Positions 25-54,341 of a stretch of 64,000 bases of DNA are shown here, piece after piece. The stretch spans positions 3,609,501 to 3,673,500 of the forward strand of contig NZ_CP020474.1 of assembly GCF_002080415.1 (NCBI RefSeq), given 5' to 3'. Position numbers and translations under genes: made by a program. The stretch is from Roseovarius mucosus. GTDB taxonomy: Bacteria; Pseudomonadota; Alphaproteobacteria; Rhodobacterales; Rhodobacteraceae. The notes beneath the pieces were generated by a model. It searched no databases. It saw only the letters and a program-made list of their open reading frames with translations, and was not told the origin of the DNA. Within the stretch, counting starts at the first letter, position 1; every line of letters begins with the position of its first letter.

Positions 25-60
25 TTTTCAACACCCCTTTAACACCCCCCTAAACACCCC
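25..60 (+). repeat. Tandem 12-bp repeats at prophage A right end
   Basis: Three near-identical units of about 12 bp (TTCAACACCCC, TTTAACACCCC, CTAAACACCCC) follow directly after the mom stop codon. The same array occurs after the mom remnant at 40859-40892 and, in degenerate form, at 42363-42386. Their place at the phage terminus suggests transposase or end-binding sites, but similar units also occur inside the genome upstream of start codons, so the role is unsettled. Confidence 0.6.
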
Positions 61-62
61 TC

Positions 63-1172
63 TCACTCCACATACCGAAACCCCTGCACGGCGCGAAAGT
101 GCCCGCCGTAGCCGGTCCCGGCGGGCTTGAGACCTTTGCGTGCCCGGGCGGCGGCGAGGGTCTTCATGCTGCGCTCCTTCGATTCGGCGTAGAGGATGGC
201 CGAGACCTGCGCCCAGAGGGGATCGCGGCGGAGCGCCGCGGCGAGGCCGGGGTGCGAGGTATGAAAGAGCATCGGCATCGGTTTGTCATAACGGTTCACG
301 CCGCGCCGCCAGAGGGCGCAGACCTCGTTGAGAAAGCGCAGGCCCAGCCCTGCGCCCTGCCACTCGGGCATCACGACAAGGCGACAGGCGCGACCCTCGA
401 CCAGCCCCGGCCGGGTGGAGACGGCGAGATGCGCCACGGGCGCGCCGTCGACGAAGCCCACGTAGTAATTCGCCGCGATCATGCGGGGCAGCTTCAGGTA
501 GTGATGCGGCTCAAAGGCGGGCCAGAAGGAGCCGTCTGTCTGGTGAATGTCCATGGCAATGCGCGGTGCCCGTCGAAGACGCCTCCAGCGGAACTCGGCC
601 CGGCGAGTGTCGATCACCCAATCGGGCTGTAGCCAGGACACCACGTCCTCGTGACAGGTGACGGCGACGAACTGGCCTTTGCCGCGCCGCCATGCCTTGG
701 CAAAGGCGGCCGCCCCGATCTGGGCCACGCGCCGGTCGATGGTCGAGGTGAACTCGTCGAGAATGGCAAAGCTCGGCCGCTCGGCCAGAATGCGCGCGAG
801 CTCAGCCCGGAATTGCTCGCCGGTCGAGAGGTGGCGGAATGGCCGCAGCCAGCTCGGCACCGTGCCAAGGCCCACGGCCGAGAGGGCCGCCGCCACGGCA
901 TCGAACGCGCCCTCCGGGTCAATTGCGTCGATCAGCGCGCCCTCGGGCCACGGGCGTGGATCAAGCTGCGCGCCAAAGGCCGCGCGGGCGAGGGAGGATT
1001 TGCCGCTGCCCGAGGGGCCGACGATGAGGCCGATCTGCCACGGACGGGCCAAGAGATCGGCCTCGACCTCGAGGCGGAAATCCGCGTCGCCCTCGACGTT
1101 GAAGAGGCTGGAGACTCGGGCCGCGCGATAGGTGTCCGGGATGGGGCTGGCGTGGTGAATGGCGAGCTTCAT
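63..1172 (-). CDS. mom: Mom-like DNA modification protein: ABC-type ATPase fused to GNAT domain
   Basis: The N-terminal half has a P-loop (GPSGSGKSS, about residues 52-60), an ABC-type signature (LSTGE, about 115), a Walker B (FAILDEFTS, about 135) and an H-loop histidine (VTCHED, about 174). The C-terminal half carries a GNAT acetyl-CoA signature (RLVVMPEWQGAGLG, about 264-277) in the context seen in Mu Mom, which makes an acetamido modification of adenine that protects phage DNA from restriction. It is the last gene before the phage end and lies behind com, as in Mu. The ATG at 1172 overlaps the upstream stop as ATGA; an in-frame ATG six codons earlier is less likely. The ATPase fusion is not present in Mu Mom. 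The modification chemistry is inferred. Confidence 0.8.
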   Translation of the reverse strand: MKLAIHHASPIPDTYRAARVSSLFNVEGDADFRLEVEADLLARPWQIGLIVGPSGSGKSSLARAAFGAQLDPRPWPEGALIDAIDPEGAFDAVAAALSAVGLGTVPSWLRPFRHLSTGEQFRAELARILAERPSFAILDEFTSTIDRRVAQIGAAAFAKAWRRGKGQFVAVTCHEDVVSWLQPDWVIDTRRAEFRWRRLRRAPRIAMDIHQTDGSFWPAFEPHHYLKLPRMIAANYYVGFVDGAPVAHLAVSTRPGLVEGRACRLVVMPEWQGAGLGLRFLNEVCALWRRGVNRYDKPMPMLFHTSHPGLAAALRRDPLWAQVSAILYAESKERSMKTLAAARARKGLKPAGTGYGGHFRAVQGFRYVE

Positions 1173-1351
1173 GTCACCACCACGCGGCATTTGAAGCCTT
1201 GGCGGCGCAGGCGGCCGAAGGCGTCCACTTGGGCCGCCTCGTCCTCGAGGAGGACAATGACGCCATATTGCCGCCGGTAGCGGGTGCCCTTGGGCAGGCC
1301 CGGCGCACCGGGCGGCAAGTCAGGTTTCGGGAGTGTGGTCGATCTGGCCAA
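1169..1351 (-). CDS. Small protein between com and mom
   Basis: This 60-residue protein is basic and has no motif I recognise; a short hydrophobic stretch (YGVIVLLEDE) sits mid-protein and the C-terminus ends FKCRVVVT. It overlaps the 3' end of com by about 30 nt and its TGA overlaps the mom ATG, so the three genes look translationally coupled. A nearly identical gene occurs at the same place in prophage B. Conservation and tight packing argue that it is real; it may take part in mom translation control or in the modification complex, but this is a guess. Confidence 0.65.
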   Translation of the reverse strand: MARSTTLPKPDLPPGAPGLPKGTRYRRQYGVIVLLEDEAAQVDAFGRLRRQGFKCRVVVT

Positions 1352-12299: not shown

Positions 12300-12656
12300 T
12301 CAGCTCTCCCGCATCGCGGCCACGGCCGCGCCTTCGATCACCTGCACCTCGGCCCAAAGTGCGGGCGTGACCTTGATCCCGCTCATGCGCAGGCCCGCCC
12401 GCGCGGCCGTGTAGTCAAGGCCCACCACGCGGAAGCCCGCGAGCCCGGCCGAGACGGTGCGCCATTGATTGCAGACCGCGAGAAAGGCGCGCAGCGCCGG
12501 GACATTCTGCGGCCAGACACCAGAGCCGGAGCCGGACGGATCACGATTGAGCTGGCCCGGGTCGATCCCCCAGAAGGCTGCCTCGTCATCATGGTCGCGC
12601 CCCTCGTCATCCTCGATCAGGTCGCCGCGCGCCCATGCCCGCCCGGCCCATTTCAG
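12300..12656 (-). CDS. DUF1799-like T extension of the tail chaperone, reached by -1 frameshift
   Basis: In the -1 frame after the G-like chaperone lies an open frame of about 118 codons with no usable ATG at its beginning. Its product includes VWPQNVPALRAFLAVCNQWR and VVGLDYTAARAGLRMSGI, the pattern of DUF1799 tail chaperones, and it stops beside the tape-measure ATG. It is therefore expected as a G-T fusion. In lambda the T part binds the tape measure and recruits tail-tube subunits. The prophage B copy (53615-53971) is nearly identical. Confidence 0.75.
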   Translation of the reverse strand: MKWAGRAWARGDLIEDDEGRDHDDEAAFWGIDPGQLNRDPSGSGSGVWPQNVPALRAFLAVCNQWRTVSAGLAGFRVVGLDYTAARAGLRMSGIKVTPALWAEVQVIEGAAVAAMRES

Positions 12657-12982
12657 TTTTTTACCCGTTTCCCCATCAGCGCTGCGTAATAGGCGTTGAT
12701 CATCGCCACGCGGACGTAAGCCAGACCAATCAGCCGGTCGCGCAGCGCGTGGCTGTATGGCAGCGCGACACCTTTCTCGTCCTCGACGTCGTCAAAGCCC
12801 ACCACGGCCGCCGCCAGAAACTCCCGCTCGCCGCGCGAGGTGCGCATGTCGAAGGCCTCAATCTCCTCGTCGGGCAGCACGCGGAATGTGACCTGCATGT
12901 CTTGCAGCTCGTGGCCGCCGTTGGCGGGCACCTTGATCTCGACGCGGTGGGTGAAGGTCGGGGTCTGGTCGATCTTGAACAT
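12653..12982 (-). CDS. Tail assembly chaperone, G-like
   Basis: The 109-residue product is placed between tail tube and tape measure and ends at MGKRVKN-stop, just after a slippery heptamer. It is acidic and helical, with the segment RGEREFLAAAVVGFDDVEDE mid-protein. In lambda-type systems this G protein and its frameshifted GT form bind the tape measure during tail assembly. A 30-bp copy of the tandem repeat lies 14 bases upstream of its start codon, in both prophages. The start is fixed by conservation with prophage B. Confidence 0.8.
   Translation of the reverse strand: MFKIDQTPTFTHRVEIKVPANGGHELQDMQVTFRVLPDEEIEAFDMRTSRGEREFLAAAVVGFDDVEDEKGVALPYSHALRDRLIGLAYVRVAMINAYYAALMGKRVKN
12656..12662 (-). 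other. Slippery heptamer A AAA AAC for -1 frameshift
   Basis: The minus-strand codons GTA AAA AAC precede the TGA of the chaperone, so A-AAA-AAC is in the correct register for tandem slippage by -1. Reading then enters the DUF1799-like frame. The heptamer and the stop directly behind it are unchanged in prophage B (53971-53977). Confidence 0.75.
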
Positions 12983-12995
12983 GGGGGGAACTCTC

Positions 12996-13025
12996 TTTCA
13001 AAGGGGCGTTGAAGGGGGCGTTGAA
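12996..13025 (-). repeat. Internal tandem repeat before the tail chaperone
   Basis: On the minus strand this reads TTCAACGCCCCC-TTCAACGCCCC-TTTGAAA, two and a half units of the 12-bp repeat found at the phage right ends. It ends 14 nt upstream of the chaperone ATG, so it is in the 5' untranslated region. Prophage B has it at 54312-54341 with the same spacing. Confidence 0.6.
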
Positions 13026-17179: not shown

Positions 17180-17545
17180 TCAGGTGACAGAGTGACGGGC
17201 AATGGCCACGTCGATGATGTCGCCAGCCACGCCCGCCTGCAGCGCGTAGCCGACGGCGATGTTTCCGGCCCCGGCGACGGCAGCTATGCCAAGGCCCACG
17301 CCGTTCGACGCGACGGGCGCACCGGCGGCAACCGTGCCCGCAAGCTCAAGCTCGGCCGAGCCGGACATGATCACGTCCTGAAGGTCGCCCGGTTTTGCGT
17401 CGAGCTGGTCCGAGATACCAATCGCGAGATTGGTCGCGGAGGCGGCCACAAGGATGCCACCGAGTGTGCCGAATTTAACGATCCGGCGGCCGGGCACCGC
17501 CGCCTCGGCGGGATAGGATTTGATGAACAGTCCGGGATTAGCCAT
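17180..17545 (-). CDS. Capsid decoration / cement protein
   Basis: The 121-residue product is glycine- and alanine-rich with segments such as GGILVAASATNLAIGISDQL and AGNIAVGYALQAGVAGDIID, which resemble DUF2190/capsid cement proteins. It sits between the scaffold and the capsid gene, where decoration proteins are usually encoded. I use the ATG at 17545, which overlaps the end of the protease gene and is the start kept in prophage B. It probably stabilises the shell. Confidence 0.7.
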   Translation of the reverse strand: MANPGLFIKSYPAEAAVPGRRIVKFGTLGGILVAASATNLAIGISDQLDAKPGDLQDVIMSGSAELELAGTVAAGAPVASNGVGLGIAAVAGAGNIAVGYALQAGVAGDIIDVAIARHSVT

Positions 17546-27095: not shown

Positions 27096-27485
27096 TTATT
27101 CAGATGAAGCCTTTCGCATGACCTGGAGGAGGGGTGGTTCTTCCTCCTCTGCCAGCTCTGCCTTGACCTGCAAAACGCGGCGGGCGGTCACGCCGAAACG
27201 GTTGGCCAGTTCATTGACCGGCGTATCCGGGGCCTCGCGCAGGGCTTGTTTGAGGCCCTCCCGGGCCTGAGCGCGCCCCGAGGGCACGTCCAGATATTCG
27301 CCAGCGTAGCGGGCGGAAATCCATCTGGCAATATCCCGGCCCGCCAGCGTCACGAGGAGGCTGTCGGCAAGGCGAGTGCCGGGCACATAAAGCCGCATGC
27401 CGCCTGCGCGAGACAGGAAACGCTCGACCGGGGCCTCGCCCAGATCGGCGCGTATCTCGTCGATCCAAGACGGCTCACGCTCCAT
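27096..27485 (-). CDS. Mor/C-type transcription activator
   Basis: The 129-residue product has the Mor/C layout: an N-terminal dimerisation part (AGGMRLYVPGTRLADSL), a central SARYAGEYLDVPSG block and a C-terminal helix-turn-helix (VNELANRFGVTARRVLQVKAE). In Mu, Mor activates the middle promoter and C the late promoters. Only one such gene is seen, so it may do both jobs. Its place between GemA and the lysis genes matches Mu. It would drive lysis, head, tail and com-mom transcription. Confidence 0.82.
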   Translation of the reverse strand: MEREPSWIDEIRADLGEAPVERFLSRAGGMRLYVPGTRLADSLLVTLAGRDIARWISARYAGEYLDVPSGRAQAREGLKQALREAPDTPVNELANRFGVTARRVLQVKAELAEEEEPPLLQVMRKASSE

Positions 27486-29519: not shown

Positions 29520-30170
29520 TCACACCTTCGCAAGATCGAGAACCACCGTCTGCCACGGGGCCTCTGTGTTGGGGCGGTGCTTGACGCGCACATACGTAGC
29601 CTTGCCCACTACCCGCATGGCGTCGCGGATGGCGTCCATCGCCCGGTTCCACCGCGCGTCGGCGATGTCGAGCCGCAGGAGCATGAAGATTTCGGCGCGG
29701 TTGATCTGGCCTTCTTTGTCGGTGTTGAAGGCGCGCGTCACGATGGCCTGAATTTCCGGGCGACTGTCAGCGGACCATTCATTGAGGCATTCGTCGATGA
29801 GGCCCTTGGCGATCTGCAACTCGGGGCCGAAGTCCACCCGGTCCTGCACTTGGACCTGCACCTGAAAGAGCCCGTCATAGGTGGTCAGCGTCTTGTTGCC
29901 CTTGGCCCCGCCGACGGTGGTCCCATACTCCTGCGCGAGGATTGCCTCGAAATCCGAAATGTCGTCGAAGGTGTGTTCCTTGAAGCGGCGGAGCTGGTCG
30001 CTGAGGGCCAGCGCATATCCGGCGATCTTGCGCACCTGTTCGTCTTGCAACTGGTCTTGCGGGCGCACGAGATCAAGCGGCACTTCGCGGCCCTTGGCGT
30101 CGACCATCTTGCGGCGGCCGTTCTCCTCTATGATGCCTGACGGCACCGGATGGGGGGTGAATGCAGACAT
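29520..30170 (-). CDS. DUF3164 protein
   Basis: The 216-residue protein contains GRRKMVDAKGREVPLDLV and the block YGTTVGGAKGNKTLTTYDGL, which are typical of DUF3164, a family tied to Mu-like replication regions downstream of MuB. The second half is helical with NEWSADSRPEIQAIVTRAF. The ATG at 30170 is preceded by AGGAGAG and, just upstream, by a copy of the tandem repeat (30181-30200). It may act in transposition or DNA protection; the function is not established. Confidence 0.8.
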   Translation of the reverse strand: MSAFTPHPVPSGIIEENGRRKMVDAKGREVPLDLVRPQDQLQDEQVRKIAGYALALSDQLRRFKEHTFDDISDFEAILAQEYGTTVGGAKGNKTLTTYDGLFQVQVQVQDRVDFGPELQIAKGLIDECLNEWSADSRPEIQAIVTRAFNTDKEGQINRAEIFMLLRLDIADARWNRAMDAIRDAMRVVGKATYVRVKHRPNTEAPWQTVVLDLAKV

Positions 30171-30171
30171 T

Positions 30172-30372
30172 TTACTCTCCTGTTGAAGGGGGTGTTGAAA
30201 GCAGGCTTGGACCCACACCATGGAGCGCGCAGACGGCGGCCATGGCGGCGATCTCGTCCATTGAGCAAAGCGTGCTGCCGCGCGGGCCAAGCAGGTCCAC
30301 CTTAGCTACTCCCGAGGCTGCAAGGCGCAGCATCTCGTCGGGACTCCAGCGGCAGATTTCGGGGGCGTTCAT
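30172..30372 (-). CDS. Small early protein whose C-terminus spans the tandem repeat
   Basis: This 66-residue protein (MNAPEICRWSPDEMLRLAAS) ends in LLSTPPSTGE, which is the translation of the TTCAACACCCCC repeat. It stops one base before the DUF3164 start and overlaps the next upstream gene. No family is recognised. It may be an early regulator. Confidence 0.55.
   Translation of the reverse strand: MNAPEICRWSPDEMLRLAASGVAKVDLLGPRGSTLCSMDEIAAMAAVCALHGVGPSLLSTPPSTGE
30181..30200 (-). repeat. Internal tandem repeat before DUF3164
   Basis: On the minus strand the bases read TTTCAACACCCCCTTCAACA, nearly two units of the phage-end repeat. It lies 10 nt upstream of the DUF3164 ATG, just before its ribosome binding site, and is inside the 3' end of the preceding gene. 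Confidence 0.55.
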
Positions 30373-32419: not shown

Positions 32420-34543
32420 TTACTCTTGGGCACCGAAGCGGCGCTCCATGCGCAGCTGGGTGCGGTAGTCGGAACTCTGTTGGTAGTCGGCCAGCCAATC
32501 GGCCTGCGCCTGCGTCAGCGTCTCGCCCTCCGCCTGCGCGGTCTCGAGGGCGCGGGCACGCAGAAAAAGGGCCTTGGGATCGTCTTCATCGACCTCAACG
32601 GGGCGGGCGCGATGCTCGGCGAGGCGCGTCACGCGGGCCTCAAGCGCTGCTTCGCGCTCTTTCTCCTCGGCGCTCTGCGCGCGCCGCCGTTTGGGGGCGG
32701 CCTTGTGCGGCGTCACAAGCTGATGAACTTGCGCCTCGGGCAGGGGGTCGTCTGCCGCCAGCCCCGAGGCTGCGCGCACCCGGGCGGCCACCTCGGCCGC
32801 CGTCAACTCGCGCGCGGCCTTGGCCTCATCGCGCTGCGCACGCATCCATGTCTTGCGCTTTCGGTTGTGATCGCGTGCGGCCTCAACGTCGCGGAACTTG
32901 GCGTCCTTGAGACATTTGGCATGGCCGAGGTACCGGCCCGCCAGATCATAAACCTCGAGACCGGCTGTCAAATCATCCGCGTCGAACCGCGCAACCACCT
33001 TCTCGCCTGCGATCCGGTACATCCACTCTGACCAGTATTCCGTGTCGTAGAGCTTCAGAGCGCCGTTGCTGGTCTTGGCCCGCACACCCTCGGCGCGCAG
33101 GAGCCAGAGACGCAGTTGTTCGTCCGTCGCGCGCTTGATCGTGGCGCGCGCATAGCCCTCGTTGAACACCTCATTAAACGACCGTCCCATGGCCACTTCG
33201 CTGCGCCGCCCGGGGCGGGCGTTGTGATGCGCGAGTTCGTCCTCTAAGACGAGGCGGAACTCCTCGAGCGGGATGGCGCGGGTGCCGTAATCCTCGGGCT
33301 TGGCGTCCGGTTTGTTGCCGGTATAGGCCCCGTCAAAGGCGGGATGCTTGGCCACCCGGTCGCAGAGGTCGCGAAACGCGCGCTCGATGGGCTTGGATTG
33401 CCCCGAATAGGGTGTGGCCCAATGTATTTCGACGCCCAAGAGCGGAAGGAGGCCGGGAATATCCTCGTCGGTGATCTTGAAGCGGAACCGGGTCGGCGTG
33501 CCGCCTGTCATCGCCTTGGCCGCGAACTCCCGGCCGTTGTCGATCAGAACCGACTGTGGGATGCCATAGGTCCGGATCAGGTCGCCGGTGACCAGCTGCA
33601 CCGTGTGGCTGTTCGCCGTCGGCGACAGGCGCCAAGCCAAGAGCTTGCCGGAATAGACGTCCGACCAGACCATCATCTGCGGTCGCACGGGCTTGTCGTA
33701 GCCCGGCCACGACACAAAGACGTCGAACTTGTGATAGTCGCCCTGGACGCATTCGAGCGGGGCCATGAACGCCTTGCTGCGAACCTGCGCAGGATAAAGG
33801 CGGCGCAGCGCTTCCTCGCCCTTGCGCATGAAAATCTCCGTGGGTACCGAGACGCTGGCCTTGAGCCAACGGCGCACCTGATGGAGAGGCGGCACGGCGC
33901 TGTTGCGCCGCTCTGAGGTCCAGACGCGCACGGCACGGTCATAGCAACTGGTGAGAGAGGGTTGCGACAGGCGCAGCCAGTCGCTGCGCACAAGTGACAG
34001 AAACGCAGGGTCTATGTCATCCCGCCGGGCGGGGGAGCGCCGCAGCGCGCGCCCGTCGATCAGGTAAGCCAGCCGGTCGGCCCGGGCGACGCCCTCGACC
34101 TGCCCGAGGTAATTCCAGAGGGATTTGTCAGACCGCTCCAGCTTGCGCGCGACCTCGCGCACGGCCGCCGAGCGGGTCAGCCCGGCCCCTTCCAGCAATT
34201 CGACCTCGGCAATAGCCCCAAGCCGCGCCTCGGCCTCGGCGCGCGCCTTGTCGCCCGCCGCCGCATAGCGCTCCCATGCCTCGCCAGTCCCGGGCTTATC
34301 CGCCGGAGCCGCGACCAGACCGGCGCTGAGCCGCATCCGGGCGCGCAGAGGCAAGATGCTCCAGTGATACTCGACGCCGCCGCCGACCCCCTTACGCCGC
34401 CGGACCTTTCCGGGGTGCCGTGCCCAGCCCTCGCGCACCGCCAGATCGTTGACCTTGCGCTTTGTGCCGGGCAGGTCGGGCAATCCGGCCTCGGCCAGCT
34501 CGGCGGCAGACCACCACTCTTGCGCAGGGGCGGGTCCAGTCAT
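32420..34543 (-). CDS. MuA-like DDE transposase
   Basis: The 707-residue protein has an N-terminal Mu-type DNA-binding domain (residues 1-70), further end-binding helix-turn-helix regions to about 230, and a catalytic core with D269 (VQGDYHKFD), D335 (LIDNGREF) and E387 (KPIERAF), the same spacing as MuA D269, D336 and E392. The Mu-type C-terminal core (about 440-560) is followed by a charged helical tail that would contact MuB. It cuts and joins phage ends for integration and replicative transposition. All catalytic residues are intact. Confidence 0.95.
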   Translation of the reverse strand: MTGPAPAQEWWSAAELAEAGLPDLPGTKRKVNDLAVREGWARHPGKVRRRKGVGGGVEYHWSILPLRARMRLSAGLVAAPADKPGTGEAWERYAAAGDKARAEAEARLGAIAEVELLEGAGLTRSAAVREVARKLERSDKSLWNYLGQVEGVARADRLAYLIDGRALRRSPARRDDIDPAFLSLVRSDWLRLSQPSLTSCYDRAVRVWTSERRNSAVPPLHQVRRWLKASVSVPTEIFMRKGEEALRRLYPAQVRSKAFMAPLECVQGDYHKFDVFVSWPGYDKPVRPQMMVWSDVYSGKLLAWRLSPTANSHTVQLVTGDLIRTYGIPQSVLIDNGREFAAKAMTGGTPTRFRFKITDEDIPGLLPLLGVEIHWATPYSGQSKPIERAFRDLCDRVAKHPAFDGAYTGNKPDAKPEDYGTRAIPLEEFRLVLEDELAHHNARPGRRSEVAMGRSFNEVFNEGYARATIKRATDEQLRLWLLRAEGVRAKTSNGALKLYDTEYWSEWMYRIAGEKVVARFDADDLTAGLEVYDLAGRYLGHAKCLKDAKFRDVEAARDHNRKRKTWMRAQRDEAKAARELTAAEVAARVRAASGLAADDPLPEAQVHQLVTPHKAAPKRRRAQSAEEKEREAALEARVTRLAEHRARPVEVDEDDPKALFLRARALETAQAEGETLTQAQADWLADYQQSSDYRTQLRMERRFGAQE

Positions 34544-36278: not shown

Positions 36279-36448
36279 CACATTGAATCCTGTGTTGAAG
36301 GGGGTGTTTCAGGGGCGGCACCTCGGCCCAGAACAGCGACGGACAGGCCTGCGGCGACCACGGCCCAGAAGATGAGGGCAAAGAGGAAGGCTATGGCGAG
36401 GCCGCTACCCGGAGGCAGGCGACGTTCGGGTGCGGGGCGCGGGCTCAT
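36278..36448 (-). CDS. Small single-segment membrane protein ending in the tandem repeat
   Basis: This 56-residue ORF starts MSPRPAPERRLPPGSG, has one hydrophobic segment (LAIAFLFALIFWAVVAAGLS) and ends ETPPSTQDSM, where the repeat TTCAACACCCCC-like bases encode TPPST. Its stop overlaps the next start. The same coding of a repeat as a C-terminal TPPST also occurs in 30172-30372. Function unknown. Confidence 0.5.
   Translation of the reverse strand: MSPRPAPERRLPPGSGLAIAFLFALIFWAVVAAGLSVAVLGRGAAPETPPSTQDSM
36293..36315 (-). repeat. Internal tandem repeat in the early operon
   Basis: On the minus strand CCCCTGAAACACCCCCTTCAACA contains two repeat units. It is 15 nt upstream of the ATG at 36278, the third such site placed directly before a start codon in prophage A. 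Confidence 0.55.
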
Positions 36449-38212: not shown

Positions 38213-38695
38213 ATGAAAGCTCCCACTATGCCTGCCGCGCTCATCGCTACTTTTACATTGGCCTGCTTTGGCTGCGGCCCTTTTTTTAGTGTCGCCACGC
38301 CAGCTCTAGCCCAGAGCGCCGCGAGCCAACAAGAAAGTTACAGTGACATCCAGAAGCGGCTGAAGACCCAACGCCAAGAGCACCAGATGAACGAGCAACG
38401 AAGGCTCTTTAAAGAAAGACAGGATCGATTTTGTAAAGAGGTCGACCTAAGGGCGAGCCTTTCCATTTCTGCTCGGCAGTTCGGAAAGATGACCGTTGAG
38501 CAGGCGTTGGAGGAGTACGTCGGCCCAAGCTACGCTTATAACAAAGGGCAGCGCAGCGTTCATGAGGCTATCATTTGGGACGCGTTTAGTGTTCCCGTGG
38601 CTTATCAGAACGGCTCGGTTCCTTCGCATGTTTTGAGCGACTTTACCGACAAGTGGGTTGGGTTATGCGAGCGCGGCGAGCTTGGCTGGCCCTGA
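38213..38695 (+). CDS. Secreted protein, probable lysogenic conversion gene
   Basis: The 160-residue product has a signal peptide (MKAPTMPAALIATFTLACFG, with LA-Q cleavage around residue 34), a charged helical stretch rich in Q, R and K (residues 40-75) and a C-terminal part with SVPVAYQNGSVPSHVL. AGGAGG lies eight bases before the ATG. It follows the repressor on the plus strand, where cargo genes for the lysogen often lie. It would act in the periplasm. No family is recognised. Confidence 0.6.
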   Translation: MKAPTMPAALIATFTLACFGCGPFFSVATPALAQSAASQQESYSDIQKRLKTQRQEHQMNEQRRLFKERQDRFCKEVDLRASLSISARQFGKMTVEQALEEYVGPSYAYNKGQRSVHEAIIWDAFSVPVAYQNGSVPSHVLSDFTDKWVGLCERGELGWP

Positions 38696-38710
38696 TACCA
38701 CGCCAAAAAA

Positions 38711-38797
38711 CGCGTCCCACTTCCCTTTGCTCTTCAGCCTAGGCCGAGAATGGCTATATTATTGATATTAATAGATTAAACATGTAAGTGGGACGCG
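38711..38797. repeat. Twelve-bp inverted repeat downstream of the secreted protein
   Basis: CGCGTCCCACTT (38711-38722) is repeated as AAGTGGGACGCG (38786-38797). The 63-bp interval is AT-rich and includes TTAATAGATTAAA. The spacing is long for a terminator, so a protein-binding pair is possible. Confidence 0.5.
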
Positions 38798-38981
38798 GAA
38801 TAAGAACTGGGCGGACTTGGTCCCAGTTCCGGACCCCTCAAGTGCCTTGATATGGCCTTCTGAACACCCCTGAAAGGGCCGTTTAAACCCTGTTTTAATG
38901 GGGTTTGGCCGCTTTCTGGCGCTTCCCTCGCCCGCGCCCCTCGTCAGCGCCTTTTTTGCCCTATCGGCCCTATTTTGCCCT

Positions 38982-39161
38982 TTCACTGCAAACTTCGCGT
39001 ACCGCCGAGTTGTCCGCCCGATTATCCCGCCAAAGCCCTTATTTCATTGGCCTATCCGGCAAAGTCCGGCGTCAGTTCGGTTCTTCCGGCATCACTGTAA
39101 ACTAATGTGTAACCCTACAGCGTGACAGCGAAGTTTGCAGTGAATTACAGTGAAGTTTACA
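38982..39161. repeat. CTGYAAACTTC repeat array, probable transposase-binding left end
   Basis: TCACTGCAAACTTCGC at 38982-38997 is repeated as the perfect inverted copy GCGAAGTTTGCAGTGA at 39127-39142. Further copies are TCACTGTAAACT at 39091 and, on the minus strand, TGTAAACTTCACTG from 39161 to 39148. The last begins with 5'-TG on the strand reading inward, as Mu-type termini do. Two sites in each orientation recall the L1-L3 sites of Mu. Confidence 0.5.
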
Positions 39162-39384
39162 GCAACGCGATTTTGGAAATGACCGAGTCGAGCGTCACTT
39201 TGGACATTAGCTCTAGCCTGGCCCTTTGATTTCGTCACGGTTTGTTCGGGATTCAGAGGTCACGGTCAAAAGACAATTGTCGCCATTGATCTTGCGCTAA
39301 AGTGAAGCCCCCGCCCAAATCCCACTATTGCGTCAACGAACTGCTCTTCTTAGGCTACCGGTGATAGCAGCAGGTGATACCCGA

Positions 39385-40761
39385 ATGGATTATTACACAA
39401 TTGGCGTGCTGGTTTGGTTTTTATCAGCACCGCTTTTTTTCATCCTCTTCCTTATTTTCAGATCGAAGCTCCGGTCGACACGTAAGCAGATGATTGACCT
39501 TGAGGCGTCGACCCAGCGCGTTCGGGAACAGGCCGACGCAAATGTGAAGGCGTCTGACGAAAAATACAGCTGGATAACCTCGCGAGAAAAAGAAATTGAA
39601 CGCTTAGAGGCCAGTGCATCGCAACTGCGCAAAGACATTGATGAGTTGCGCACCTCATACAAGGATAAGAAGTCGACTTTTGATCGGCTACGGCAAGAGG
39701 TCGCCTTATACGACGAACGGATAGCTTTCGCGGAACTTGGCGTCTATGAGCCCCATTTCGACTTCGGAGATTCTGAGGTTTTCAGGACCGCAATCAACGA
39801 AGTCCGTGAAAAGCAGAAGGCCATGGTATCAGCCAAAATGGCGACGGCCTGTCCGACTGATTGGACCGTGGACGGTAGCAAGTCCAAGGGAGCCGCGATG
39901 ATCAATCGTCAGACTCGATTGACCCTGCGCGCGTTCAACAGTGAATGCGACGCCGCAATAGCGAACGCTCGCTGGAACAACGTAAACGCCATGGAGAAGC
40001 GTATCTTGAACGCGGAGAAGCAAATCAACGCGGCCAATGCCTCTATGAACCTGACCATTCGCGGGGAGTATGTTGCTTTGAAGCTTGATGAGCTGCATCT
40101 GACCCACGAGTACCGCGAACAGCAGAAGCGCGAGAGGGACGAGCGGGCAGAAAGTGCGCGGCTGGACCGAGAGGAGAAAAAGCTCCAAGCTGAAGCCGCC
40201 GCCGCAGCCGCCGAAGAGAAAAAGTACCAAGAGATGCTTGATAAGGCACGGCAGGAAGTAGGCGTTGATGAGGAAAGAATCGTAGAACTAGAGCGCGCAT
40301 TGGCTGAGGCCCACGAGAAGACAGAACGGGCAAAATCCATGGCGGAAATGACGAAGTCTGGGTATGTCTACATCATCTCGAACGTCGGTAGCTTTGGTGA
40401 AGACGTTGTCAAAATCGGATTGACCAGAAGGCTCGATCCAGACGACCGGGTGCGTGAGCTTGGAGATGCAAGCGTACCGTTTCTGTTTGACACTCATGCC
40501 ATGATTTATTCTGAAGAAGCTCCGGCTCTCGAGGCCGCTTTGCATCGGGAATTTGAAGAAAGACGTGTAAACGCCGCAAACATGCGCAAAGAGTTCTTCC
40601 GGGTTTCTCTCGAGGAGGTCGAAGAGGCGGTGAAGCGCCTTGCCACGGGCGCAGAGTTTTTCAAGGATCGCGAGGCACAGGAGTGGCACGAGACCTTGTG
40701 GCGCAGGAAGCAGCTATTGTCTGCCCAAGGAACCGCCGAGGCGTTGCCTGATAATATCTAA
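39385..40761 (+). CDS. Membrane-anchored DUF4041/T5orf172 (GIY-YIG-like) protein
   Basis: The 458-residue protein starts MDYYTIGVLVWFLSAPLFFI, a single N-terminal membrane segment, followed by a long coiled coil (about 30-90), a DUF4041-type middle and another coiled coil (about 230-315). The last 120 residues have GYVYIISNVGSFGEDVVKIG, then LTRRLDPDDRVRELGDASVP and LEAALHREFEERRVN, the T5orf172 form of the GIY-YIG fold. I prefer the ATG at 39385 with AGGTGAT upstream. Codon use is less GC-rich than in the prophages. A nuclease or defence role is possible but not shown. Confidence 0.75.
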   Translation: MDYYTIGVLVWFLSAPLFFILFLIFRSKLRSTRKQMIDLEASTQRVREQADANVKASDEKYSWITSREKEIERLEASASQLRKDIDELRTSYKDKKSTFDRLRQEVALYDERIAFAELGVYEPHFDFGDSEVFRTAINEVREKQKAMVSAKMATACPTDWTVDGSKSKGAAMINRQTRLTLRAFNSECDAAIANARWNNVNAMEKRILNAEKQINAANASMNLTIRGEYVALKLDELHLTHEYREQQKRERDERAESARLDREEKKLQAEAAAAAAEEKKYQEMLDKARQEVGVDEERIVELERALAEAHEKTERAKSMAEMTKSGYVYIISNVGSFGEDVVKIGLTRRLDPDDRVRELGDASVPFLFDTHAMIYSEEAPALEAALHREFEERRVNAANMRKEFFRVSLEEVEEAVKRLATGAEFFKDREAQEWHETLWRRKQLLSAQGTAEALPDNI

Positions 40762-41122
40762 CGAGAACCATTAAAAAAATCGAAGTCAACCGTGACCGCG
40801 TCTAAAGAAATTCCTTGAGGTATCCTAATTCGCCAACGTTCGACGGCCGAACCTCATCTTTTCAACGCCCCTTTAACACCCCGCTAAACACCTCCCTCAC
40901 TCCACATACCGAAACCCCTGCACGGCGCGGGAATGTCCCATATGCGCAGGAGGCGGGCTTTGCAAAGGTGGGATCTTGGCACCGAAGCCGACCTTCGTGA
41001 CAGCGCAGCGAATGACGGGTCGGAGCCCATTGTGCTGGATGCTGCGTTTTGCACCAACGACTGTTTTCGCAACAACAATTGAGAAGCAGGTGCGTAACGG
41101 ACAAGAAAACTCCGGAAACACA
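40762..41122. other. Intergenic DNA holding a phage right-end remnant
   Basis: No gene of its own is visible. Bases 40859-40930 match the right end of prophage A (repeat array plus the last 13 or so codons of mom). After it the homology is lost and unrelated sequence continues to 41122. The part from 40762 to 40858 has no recognised feature. Confidence 0.6.
40859..40930 (-). pseudogene. mom 3' end and right-end repeats, third copy
   Basis: The bases encode the last residues RAVQGFRYVE and stop of mom (40897-40926) followed by the repeat array CTTTTCAACGCCCC-TTTAACACCCC-GCTAAACACC. The array matches the prophage A end (25-60) better than that of prophage B (42363-42386). It is either a remnant of a third phage or the true right end of prophage B, with the next 1.4 kb as inserted cargo. 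Confidence 0.7.
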
Positions 41123-42016
41123 TTAAAAGCGGAAGTCACGTCCCTTTTTCTTTGCCTTCTGACGAAGATCGGATACTCTTTTGCGGCTCTCTTCTGTTAA
41201 TTCATTGTCAACTTCTGTGAGAGCGGCATTGATCGTTTTCTTCTCGATCAGTAACTCTTTTAGTAAATTGTTTAATGCGATATCGATTTCGTGAAAGCAC
41301 GCGAAGACCGACTGATAGCATTCCGAAGCTGGATCTGAATAGTATTGATATTCAACTCCATCAACTTCAATGCTCTCCACCGTTATCTCGGGTTTATCGA
41401 GCTTTTCGAGCTCAACGCTCTCCTTCCAGGTTGCATTGTCGTAAAGAGCAGACGTAGTGCCAGGAAAAAATGTGTAAGGATTGAATTTTGCGGCATCTTC
41501 CAGCTCGAACATCAAGGCTTCGAGCTTCAGTGGAAGATTAGTGGTACTTCTGAGTTTCATGATCTCGTAGTGGAAGTTCTTCCTAGTCAGAATATTCTCT
41601 ATGAATTGCCTCTCAAAACCAAAGGGCGATGGATAGTATTCAACAAATCTAGGTATATAGTCACCATGATCGCCTGCCCACTTTTCTTGGAAAAACGGAA
41701 CTCTTGAATAAAGCTCATCTTTAATTTGGAGGACTGGAATCAACGCATTTTCCAAATCGCTTCTCATTAAAACCAAACTCTCTCTAGTCGCGGCCAAAGA
41801 CTGGCGTCGGGTCTCAATGACCTGCCGAGCAGCGTACCAAATTGCAATCACGGTAAATATGGCTGCAAGGGGATTTATCCAACTTCGCAGGCAGATAACT
41901 GGGCTCTCGTCGGCAACACAGAAATAGCTATGGAGAGAAGACGCGTAAAGCCAGGCCGCAAACAAAAGTACTACGCTGCCCAACGAAACAGCGCATAGGA
42001 TGAAAAGTTGTTTCAT
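41123..42016 (-). CDS. Membrane protein of unknown function
   Basis: The 297-residue protein has two N-terminal membrane segments (about 3-22 and 48-68, LAAIFTVIAIWYAARQVIET) and a large cytoplasmic part with several acidic and aromatic stretches, ending in a basic coiled coil (SRKRVSDLRQKAKKKGRDFR). The ATG at 42016 has AAGGGA upstream. Base composition is clearly more AT-rich than in the phage genes, so it was probably acquired from elsewhere. It lies between two phage right ends, as if it were cargo. No family is recognised. Confidence 0.65.
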   Translation of the reverse strand: MKQLFILCAVSLGSVVLLFAAWLYASSLHSYFCVADESPVICLRSWINPLAAIFTVIAIWYAARQVIETRRQSLAATRESLVLMRSDLENALIPVLQIKDELYSRVPFFQEKWAGDHGDYIPRFVEYYPSPFGFERQFIENILTRKNFHYEIMKLRSTTNLPLKLEALMFELEDAAKFNPYTFFPGTTSALYDNATWKESVELEKLDKPEITVESIEVDGVEYQYYSDPASECYQSVFACFHEIDIALNNLLKELLIEKKTINAALTEVDNELTEESRKRVSDLRQKAKKKGRDFRF

Positions 42017-42362
42017 ACGTTTAGAGTCCCTTTTGCCTTCCACCAACCGTTGGCCAGAGTTGCCGATGGATACTGAGACGTCAATTGCTTGGTGTGCATT
42101 CCTCTGCAGGATCGCCTCGGGCAGCCAATGCTGCCATCAACTAACTCCCCGAAGTGTCCTAGGGCTTTCAATGGATGCCGTTCACCATTGCCGGGTAGCA
42201 ATTTACGAGCGGTCATTGTTCTTAACAAGATCAGCGACCTCATCGTCCGCATCCTACCAGTTCGTGGCCCCCGCGGTGAATGTCAGCTATCGCAAATTCG
42301 CGTCTGGGACCGTGGGTCCGCTTCGGGCTGACATCGGTCATTAACTAGGAACATGAGGGGCA
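42017..42362. other. Gene-free stretch beside prophage B mom end
   Basis: About 345 bp with no convincing gene. It includes ATGTCAGC (42282-42289) repeated inverted as GCTGACAT (about 42326-42333) around CGCAAATTCGCG. I see no clear phage terminus or target duplication. Confidence 0.4.
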
Positions 42363-42386
42363 GGTTTAACCCCCCTTAAACACCCC
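42363..42386 (+). repeat. Degenerate right-end repeats beside prophage B mom
   Basis: GGTTTAACCCCCCTTAAACACCCC corresponds to the array at 25-60 but lacks the outer TTTTCAAC unit and is altered in the middle. This raises doubt that it still serves as the active end. Confidence 0.55.
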
Positions 42387-42387
42387 C

Positions 42388-43497
42388 TCACTCCACATAC
42401 CGAAACCCCTGCACGGCGCGGAAATGGCCGCCATAGCCAGTCCCGGCGGGCTTCAGGCCGCGACGCGCCCGGGCAGCGGCGAGGGTCTTCATGCTGCGTT
42501 CCTTGGACTGGGCGTAGAGGATGGCGGAGACCTGCGCCCAGAGGGGATCGCGGCGGAGCGCTGCGGCGAGGCCGGGGTGCGAGGTGTGAAAGAGCATCGG
42601 CATCGGTTTGTCGTAGCGGTTCACGCCGCGCCGCCAGAGGGCGCAGACCTCGTTGAGAAAGCGCAGGCCCAGCCCCGCGCCTTGCCACTCGGGCATGACG
42701 ACAAGGCGACAGGCGCGGCCCTCGACCAGCCCCGGCCGGGTCGAGACGGCGAGATGCGCCACGGGCGCGCCATCGACGAAACCCACGTAGTAATTGGCCG
42801 CGATCATGCGGGGCAGCTTCAGGTAGTGATGCGGCTCAAAGGCGGGCCAGAAGGAGCCGTCCGTCTGGTGAATGTCCATGGCAATGCGCGGTGCCCGTCG
42901 AAGACGCCTCCAGCGGAACTCGGCGCGGCGGGTGTCGATCACCCAATCGGGCTGTAGCCATGACACCACGTCCTCGTGACAGGTGACGGCGACGAACTGG
43001 CCTTTGCCGCGCCGCCACGCCTTGGCAAACGCGGCGGCCCCGATCTGGGCCACGCGCCGGTCGATGGTCGAGGTGAACTCGTCGAGAATGGCAAAGCTCG
43101 GCCGCTCTGCCAGAATGCGCGCCAACTCAGCCCGGAATTGCTCGCCGGTCGAGAGATGGTGGAAGGGGCGCAGCCAGCTCGGCACGGTGCCAAGGCCCAC
43201 GGCGGAGAGGGCCGCCGCGACGGCATCGAATGCGCCCTCGGGATCAATCGCGTCGATCAGCGCGCCCTCGGGCCACGGACGTGGATCAAGCTGCGCGCCA
43301 AAGGCCGCGCGGGCAAGCGAGGATTTGCCGCTGCCCGAGGGGCCGACAATGAGGCCGATCTGCCACGGCCGGGCCAAGAGATCGGCCTCGACCTCGAGGC
43401 GGAAATCCGCGTCGCCCTCGACGTTGAAGAGGCTGGAGACCCGGGCCGCGCGGTAGGTGTCCGGGATGGGGCTAGGGTGGTGGATGGCGAGCTTCAT
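42388..43497 (-). CDS. mom: Mom-like ABC-ATPase/GNAT fusion, prophage B copy
   Basis: This copy has the same Walker A, LSTGE signature, Walker B, H-loop histidine and GNAT motif as the prophage A protein and differs by only a few residues (for example HHPSPIPD for HHASPIPD near the start and AQSKERS for AESKERS near the end). The ATG at 43497 overlaps the upstream small gene's stop. The near-identity over the whole length suggests strong selection on the modification gene. Confidence 0.8.
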   Translation of the reverse strand: MKLAIHHPSPIPDTYRAARVSSLFNVEGDADFRLEVEADLLARPWQIGLIVGPSGSGKSSLARAAFGAQLDPRPWPEGALIDAIDPEGAFDAVAAALSAVGLGTVPSWLRPFHHLSTGEQFRAELARILAERPSFAILDEFTSTIDRRVAQIGAAAFAKAWRRGKGQFVAVTCHEDVVSWLQPDWVIDTRRAEFRWRRLRRAPRIAMDIHQTDGSFWPAFEPHHYLKLPRMIAANYYVGFVDGAPVAHLAVSTRPGLVEGRACRLVVMPEWQGAGLGLRFLNEVCALWRRGVNRYDKPMPMLFHTSHPGLAAALRRDPLWAQVSAILYAQSKERSMKTLAAARARRGLKPAGTGYGGHFRAVQGFRYVE

Positions 43498-53614: not shown

Positions 53615-53971
53615 TCAGCTCTCCCGCATCGCGGCCACGGCCGCGCCTTCGATCACCTGCACCTCGGCCCAAAGCTCGGGCGTGATCCGGACGCCGCTCA
53701 TGCGCAGCCCCGCCCGTGCGGCCGTGTAGTCGAGGCCCACCACGCGGAACCCTGCGAGCCCGGCCGAGACGGTGCGCCACTGGTTGCAGACCGCGAGGAA
53801 GGCGCGCACGGCAGGGACATTCTGCGGCCAAACGCCAGAGCCGGGGCCGGACGGATCACGACTGAGCTGGCCCGGGTCGATCCCCCAGAAGGCTGCCTCG
53901 TCGTCATGGTCGCGCCCCTCGTCATCGCCGATCAGGTCGCCGCGCGCCCATGCCCGCCCGGCCCATTTCAG
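53615..53971 (-). CDS. DUF1799-like T extension by -1 frameshift, prophage B
   Basis: The frame entered after the slippery heptamer at 53971-53977 encodes about 118 residues with the same DUF1799-like blocks as in prophage A (ALRAFLAVCNQWRTVSAGLA, VVGLDYTAARAGLRMSGV). The only ATG-type starts are far inside. Preservation of both frames across the overlap supports the fusion product. Confidence 0.75.
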   Translation of the reverse strand: MKWAGRAWARGDLIGDDEGRDHDDEAAFWGIDPGQLSRDPSGPGSGVWPQNVPAVRAFLAVCNQWRTVSAGLAGFRVVGLDYTAARAGLRMSGVRITPELWAEVQVIEGAAVAAMRES

Positions 53972-54297
53972 TTTTTTACCCGCTTCCCCATGATCGCCGC
54001 GTAATAGGCGTTGATCATCGCCACGCGGACGTAAGCCAGACCAATCAACCGGTCGCGCAGGGCGTGGCTGTAGGGCAGCTTCGCGCCTTTCTCGTCCTCG
54101 ACGTCGTCAAAGTCTTGAACCACGGCCCCCAGAAACTCCCGCTCGCCGCGCGCGGTGCGCATGTCGAAGCCTTCGACCTCCGCGTCGGGCAGCACACGGA
54201 AGGTGACCTGCATATCCTGCACCTCGTGGCCGCCGTCGGAGGGCACCTTGATCTCCACGCGGTGCGTGAAGGTCGGGGTTTGGTCGATCTTGAACAT
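53968..54297 (-). CDS. Tail assembly chaperone, G-like, prophage B
   Basis: The 109-residue product has the same length as in prophage A and differs mostly by conservative changes (EVEGFDMRTARGEREFLGAV). It ends MGKRVKN before the shared slippery site. A repeat copy lies 14 bases upstream of its start (54312-54341). Confidence 0.8.
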   Translation of the reverse strand: MFKIDQTPTFTHRVEIKVPSDGGHEVQDMQVTFRVLPDAEVEGFDMRTARGEREFLGAVVQDFDDVEDEKGAKLPYSHALRDRLIGLAYVRVAMINAYYAAIMGKRVKN

Positions 54298-54311: not shown

Positions 54312-54341
54312 TTTCAAAGGGGTGTTGAAGGGGGCGTTGAA
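54312..54341 (-). repeat. Internal tandem repeat before the tail chaperone, prophage B
   Basis: The minus strand reads TTCAACGCCCCC-TTCAACACCCC-TTTGAAA, the same as at 12996-13025 but for one base. The distance of 14 nt to the start codon is also kept. Confidence 0.6.

Follow-up and report, generated by a model that had tools for sequence, protein, structure and literature searches.

The window (the whole 64,000-nucleotide stretch of Roseovarius mucosus DNA that was analyzed; positions are counted from its first letter) overlaps two Mu-like prophages, A and B, both on the minus strand (Table 1). MuA homologues were found in 174 phage records, including Mu itself, and together with the MuB family phrog_296 they identified the transposase A and B genes. 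The transposase of A was 62.5% identical to that of phage vB_ThpS-P1. As in Mu, the termini have the form TG...CA (TGTAG...CTACA) and are flanked by a 5-bp target duplication, which was CCCCG in an R. mucosus prophage (CCCCG followed by TGTAGGGTTACAC on the left flank, GTCACGCTACA followed by CCCCG on the right) and CACGC in A. Prophage A spans approximately window positions -1538 to 39119. Prophage B spans approximately 39120 to 81094, is interrupted by A near its right terminus, and has an ambiguous target duplication of 5 to 8 bp. The terminal clusters consist of direct repeats of 10 to 12 bp with the core CTGYAAACTTC. The sequence AAAATCGCGTTGCTG was considered as a left terminus or a right-left junction and was rejected, being the right-terminal repeat cluster.

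Table 1. Features of prophages A and B in the window
Feature	Position	Strand	
Right array of A; follows immediately on the stop region of the last late gene and borders the right cargo slot on its inner side	25..62	-	
Last late gene of A, 375 aa, phrog_11143, ABC_tran-like and acetyltransferase-like parts	63..1190	-	
Internal site 1 (A), TTCAACGCCCCCTTCAACGCCCCTTTGAAAGAGAG, before the tail-chaperone-like gene 12653-12982	12996..13025	-	
Internal site 2 (A), TTCAACACCCCCTTCAAC, just before AGGAGA and the start of the DUF3164 gene (29520-30170)	30181..30200	-	
Internal site 3 (A), TGAAACACCCCCTTCAAC, before a small early gene with its start at 36281 or 36278	36293..36315	-	
Left cargo gene of A, 160 aa, without Pfam match	38213..38695	+	
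Left array of A, about 0.2 kb inside the left terminus	38877..38908	-	
Left terminus of A, TGTAGGGTTACAC...GTTTACAGTG	39092..39119	-	
Right-terminal repeat cluster of B, split by the insertion of A (CACGC)	39120..39175	-	
Right-slot cargo gene of B, T5orf172 domain, PD-Lambda-1 match (E 1e-163)	39328..40761	+	
Duplicate array (C), located in the cargo of B and accompanied by about 35 nt from the 3' end of the last late gene	40859..40898	-	
Right-slot cargo gene of B, 307 aa, without family match	41123..42046	-	
Right array of B	42363..42389	-	
Internal site 1 (B), before gene 53968-54297	54312..54341	-	

Several further observations concern the surroundings of the termini. An incoming copy seems to enter the right terminus of one already resident: A interrupts the last bases of the right terminus of B (39092-39175), and additional sites of this kind were seen in L020 (approximately 17260-17353) and L338 (approximately 390-520). 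Seven of 13 distinct left termini (A, B, L080, L097, L137, L146, and L250) come immediately after right-terminal repeat sequence, one (L254) is doubtful, and five do not. Mu shows immunity to self-insertion, the opposite of insertion into a resident right terminus. Past the right terminus of A (L356, approximately window -1540 to -1620; also L338) lies a ladder of right-terminus fragments, and after it comes the leader of a gene that by eye resembles an acyl-CoA dehydrogenase gene; a similar ladder accompanies a second R. mucosus cluster located at this leader. A gutted element, D (17300-20000 of L020 and 1-3100 of L021, corresponding to window positions of about 81100-86900), is made up of right-terminal repeats, cargo, an array with about 95 nt of the end of the late gene, and a stretch resembling the inner left end, and it lacks the phage genes found in A and B. 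A 129-aa protein encoded at 27096-27485 gave a weak match, below the curated cut-off, to the Mor transcription activator family and may act as a middle or late regulator. For vB_ThpS-P1 and vB_PeaS-P1 (KT381864 and KT381865; PMC5488378), the deposited records start in or just beyond the right-terminal repeats (L027 1-170 and L028 1-70), which bears on the statement, in the part of that paper cited here, that these phages carry no variable host DNA.

Definition and specificity of the repeat

The preliminary description had listed a 12-bp tandem unit, TTCAACRCCCC, at seven places. The motif was present at each of them, although the unit as typed has 11 nt. With at most one mismatch allowed, it matched the window 13 times versus 2.39 expected, and the maximum in 100 dinucleotide shuffles was 6. 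Pairs of TTNAAC spaced 10 to 13 bp apart occurred 10 times in 90.5 kb (the window plus adjoining chromosome, covering the two prophages); 100 block shuffles of single bases gave 0.27 such pairs on average and never more than 2. Two pairs of the 10, those at 33162 and 71558, belong to a coding repeat of the transposase gene and were excluded as evidence. The core of the repeat is the palindromic TTNAA, recurring each 11 to 12 bp: the right-hand arrays have the shorter period, 11 bp, and the internal sites the longer, 12 bp. Equal density in unrelated host DNA, or a lack of conservation in related phages, had been named beforehand as outcomes that would refute the proposed signal, and neither was found. 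The array was kept in relatives, and all seven occurrences of the C-rich two-unit array in the 4.38-Mb genome fell inside one prophage cluster (3,609,527-3,693,426), with no matches in the same genome for the reversed-motif control. A looser form of the array, with any spacer, was frequent in host genomes (40 of 40), and the specificity therefore resides in the core together with its C-rich spacer.

A scan for arrays yielded 47, of which 17 had a candidate start no more than 25 nt away; three of these 17 were the transposase coding repeat, and the others were mostly copies of one homologous site, site 2. Among ten controls with permuted motifs, the counts were 3, 4, 0, 0, 0, 0, 1, 0, 0, and 1 arrays, none of them near a start, and the variant TTGAAC gave 10 arrays, two of them near a start. 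The repeat is real and phage specific. A coding origin was rejected, as site 1 and the right and left arrays are noncoding, though sites 2 and 3 are coding. CtrA sites have the form TTAA-N7-TTAA, and the alphaproteobacterial LexA box has the form GTTC-N7-GTTC. CtrA sites (the cores TTCAA and TTGAA do not fit), a LexA box (GTTG does not fit), and Rho sites (the arrays are too short) were all rejected. The ParB-like gene of relatives has, toward its 3' end, in-frame GTTAAA/GTTGAA repeats spaced at 12 bp and encoding VKDPVEE-like sequence (for example, L155 at 5692, L152 at 5757, and L148 at 4074); these may be coding or a further array, and they were excluded as evidence for the arrays.

Arrays in the outer phage regions

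Three of the seven copies had been described as right ends of the phage DNA, a view that was abandoned once the true termini were located elsewhere. The termini are other sequences, cargo of 1.5 kb in A and 3.2 kb in B lies between the right array and the terminal repeats, and the copy at 40859 is the duplicate inside the cargo of B. The array at 42363 consists of the units TTTAAC and TTAAAC. Beyond the late gene, an array was found in all 14 loci with sequence there, in four distinct forms; the remaining 5 of the 19 right-hand loci end before the array position. Twelve right arrays, hand-picked for looking like arrays, contained 27 TTNAA cores versus 1.1 expected, spaced 11 bp apart in 10 cases and 12 bp in three. 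TTCAAC is in the sense orientation in the right array of vB_ThpS-P1 and antisense in A to D.

A, B, and L338 carry different genes in the interval that separates the terminal repeats from the last late gene, which identifies this interval as an accessory slot. It was nearly empty in R. mucosus copy 1 (about 24 nt) and, unlike in A and B, in vB_ThpS-P1, where the right array is only about 11 nt from the terminal repeats and almost no right cargo is present. Five of the 13 slot proteins tested, a set that excludes the late gene at 63-1190, strongly matched catalogued or candidate anti-phage systems. In addition to the PD-Lambda-1 match in Table 1, the right slot of A encodes a RelA/SpoT-domain protein matching PDC-S33 (E 2e-92), the left side of B encodes a metallophosphatase/NTPase-domain protein matching PDC-S60 (E 4e-101), and L338 encodes an NsnA match (E 1e-63) beside a HEPN protein. 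A match to cll was found in L067 (E 4e-19), and the array-adjoining proteins of L062 and L063 had no strong defence match; no right terminus was seen in these three loci, and the proteins next to their arrays may be host DNA. In five right-hand forms (B, D, L066, L075, and the second R. mucosus copy), about 45 nt past the array were still common, so that the switch to differing sequence lies past the array. These approximately 45 nt (AATGATCGGTGTCAGCCCGAAGCGG, phage strand) are alike beside five right arrays despite the differing cargo beyond, and similar stretches were located at window positions 42318-42360, at 60-110 of L021, and in L066, L075, and L338; within the genome of the window, an exact 18-mer of this stretch occurred only at B and D.

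On the left side, the regions of 14 phages contained 47 TTNAA sequences versus 9.4 expected. The form CAAACCCY-TTNAA...TTNAA was common to 12 of the 14, and L225 and vB_ThpS-P1 had their cores in another form. Beside the left array, at 38690-38860, GTCCCACTT...AAGTGGGACGCG is followed by a T-run; similar sequences occur in many relatives and appear terminator-like by eye.

Internal arrays at gene starts

The copies at 12996 and 54312 are one site in two related prophages, which leaves three different internal sites in the window. They lie over the translation-start regions of the tail gene, the DUF3164 gene, and the early gene, and the Shine-Dalgarno sequence comes after the last unit, with the motif 5' of AGGAGA at site 2. 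Site 3 has one perfect unit and one imperfect unit (TGAAAC). The distance of 10 to 15 nt to a start codon that had been claimed for every internal copy was correct for site 2 (11 nt) and site 3 (12 or 15 nt, for GTG or ATG), whereas at site 1 the value of 14 nt requires TTTGAA to be accepted as a third unit, and measuring from the second TTCAAC gives 25 nt. The uniform strand relation was borne out, as all internal copies share one orientation, which is opposite to that of the right-hand arrays. The reading of the repeat as TPPST at gene ends also held, by eye, at the end of the upstream gene at site 2 (STPPST) and site 3 (TPPST).

Fifty-three DUF3164 loci were examined out of 160 fetched, many of them near-duplicates; 25 had an array at the start, two of these in a degenerate form (L099 and L101), and 28 had none. 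The array was also present in L137, L139, and L158, with 64% identity in the DUF3164 protein, and the DUF3164 protein of B is 61% identical to that of A. The array at this gene persists down to about 61 to 64% protein identity. Units in the opposite orientation were found at the DUF3164 start in L238, L256, and L274, the first two being from one sample, and an opposite-orientation array precedes another gene in L352. In all array-bearing loci shown, the distance from array to start at site 2 was constant at 11 to 12 nt, and in 17 distinct leaders AGGAGA beside TTCAAC was invariant, with AAC-A in 16; the C-rich spacer was as invariant as the Shine-Dalgarno sequence and the core. None of 25 genes tested tracked the presence of site 2, and a model of the DUF3164 protein gave no informative fold match. 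Site 1 was present in 32 of 52 tail loci, all with at least 91% identity, and absent from 20, two of them at 82 to 84% identity (another 3 of 55 loci end inside the gene and were left out). In RNA folding of a hand-chosen list of 51 starts, the internal starts ranked 8, 9, 11, and 12 in accessibility, with energies of -3.1 to -13.4 versus a median of -20.9. A search of Rfam gave no family match in the window.

Identity breaks around the arrays

In an alignment of A with B, identity immediately beyond the array at site 2 dropped to 24 identical columns per 50, down from 48; at the right array it started at 40, fell to 27, and continued at 17 to 24. No identity break was found at site 1 in the tail gene, and the breaks around site 3 fell about 140 columns before and about 110 columns after the array, not at the array itself. 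The breakpoint data cover a single pair, in which two of the four arrays showed a break, together with loci chosen around site 2. At this site the switch went both ways: A and B were 90% identical upstream and 57% downstream, and A and L099 were 61% and 85% identical, respectively. Among 22 loci chosen around site 2 (L092 was left out), 28 of 210 pairs had both flanks diverged (upstream <60%, downstream <70%), and their array segment averaged 79% identity versus 56% upstream and 61% downstream. Extra sequence was present between the array and the DUF3164 gene in L090 and L091. The relatives are partly metagenomic contigs.

Discussion

The best reading of these data, which we put forward tentatively, is a phased protein-binding array that may have become, secondarily, a joint for the exchange of modules. 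Such an array would consist of putative protein-binding sites with the core TTNAA, one per helical turn (11 to 12 bp), and occurs in a family of Mu-like phages of the Rhodobacterales. A conserved phage protein would bind the arrays and insulate or repress the adjoining gene block, somewhat like a stoperator system, and a short, conserved sequence placed between modules would provide homology for the exchange of cargo and alleles. A protein on one face of the DNA is favored because of the phase, the palindromic core, the tolerance of either orientation, and the placement outside genes, and the role as a joint is favored because of the switching and duplication at the arrays. The same reading is weakened by the lack of a gene tracking site 2 among those tested, by the DUF3164 loci without an array, by the absence of a break at site 1, by the displaced breaks at site 3, and by the five right-hand forms that switch past the array. 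Of the earlier proposal that one signal links DNA ends with gene starts, the part that survives is that the array is common to the outer phage regions and to gene starts; the DNA ends themselves are unmarked by it. A broader version, in which a single phage DNA-binding protein would read all arrays, insulate the end slots, and control a few starts, with the arrays as standard joints for defence genes, appears doubtful.

Among the alternatives, a function of the internal copies in the mRNA ranks next and is unlikely. A G-poor, open leader 5' of the Shine-Dalgarno sequence could aid ribosome loading, or the copies could be the operator of an RNA-binding regulator, with the right and left arrays representing a separate use of a similar sequence. 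This explanation of the internal copies fits the fixed distance to the Shine-Dalgarno sequence, the invariant spacer and AGGAGA context at site 2, and the accessible leaders; however, the same phased motif lies outside genes at both phage ends, units at the DUF3164 starts of three relatives are in the opposite orientation, and the search of Rfam found no family match in the window. Somewhat less probable again is a pure linker, a short boundary sequence read by no protein and kept because phages recombine there. The switches at the right array and site 2, the extra sequence in L090 and L091, and the duplication of the array with the late-gene end inside cargo are what such a linker would predict, but it leaves the phase of 11 to 12 bp, maintained with varying spacers and orientations, without explanation, and likewise sites 1 and 3, where identity does not break at the array. 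The arrays could also be accessory binding sites for the transposase that take part in end recognition, which we consider improbable. In favor of this, arrays occur on the inner side of each terminus, and direct repeats of 10 to 12 bp also make up the terminal clusters; yet the terminal repeats have a different core, internal copies would be superfluous, and in A and B the intervening cargo leaves the right array and the right terminus in no fixed geometry. The phased DNA array with a role as a joint thus stands first in this ranking.

The stoperators of cluster A mycobacteriophages (L5 and relatives), as described in the portion of PMC9283540 cited here, are likewise short phage-specific sites scattered genome-wide in short intergenic gaps, and like the internal arrays they have one orientation relative to transcription. 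Each stoperator is a single asymmetric 13-bp site that a monomer of the immunity repressor binds, and a genome contains more than 20 of them, whereas the present sites are phased arrays of tandem units and occur only a few times in each genome. Although the arrays of A and B are alike, the two repressor genes match at only 71% over 504 nt, and the palindromes beside these genes look different by eye, an indirect hint that the immunity repressor does not bind the arrays. The start-associated sequence (SAS) of cluster K mycobacteriophages, according to the cited part of PMC3203893, is also a repeated phage-specific motif at translation starts, mostly in one orientation and absent or nearly absent from the host. 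It is, however, the ribosome-binding site itself, 3 to 7 bp from the starts of many genes, while the present array is 5' of the Shine-Dalgarno sequence and occurs at three kinds of gene as well as outside genes on the right and left. The accessory-gene regions (RGPs, or morons) of Pseudomonas Mu-like phages similarly hold variable genes in fixed slots; their flanking sequences were inspected, and the section of PMC4378225 cited here reports no common recombinase target or flank sequence, in contrast to the array that marks the inner edge of the right slot in our phages. Phage vB_ThpS-P1 resembles A in its gene order, terminal repeats, and TTNAA cores on the right and left, but a search with up to two mismatches found no internal two-unit array in it.

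These results bear on the question of how temperate phages acquire accessory genes, including defence genes. A defined, conserved, phage-specific sequence lies at the edge of a slot and at the point where DUF3164 alleles are exchanged, which brings the question within reach of tests on a single short DNA element. If the arrays also act as operators, they would constitute a genome-wide control signal of Mu-like phages, of which our literature searches found no description. Overall, an array placed at the edge of a slot that is able to hold antiviral defence genes may help to explain how these phages control and trade their genes.
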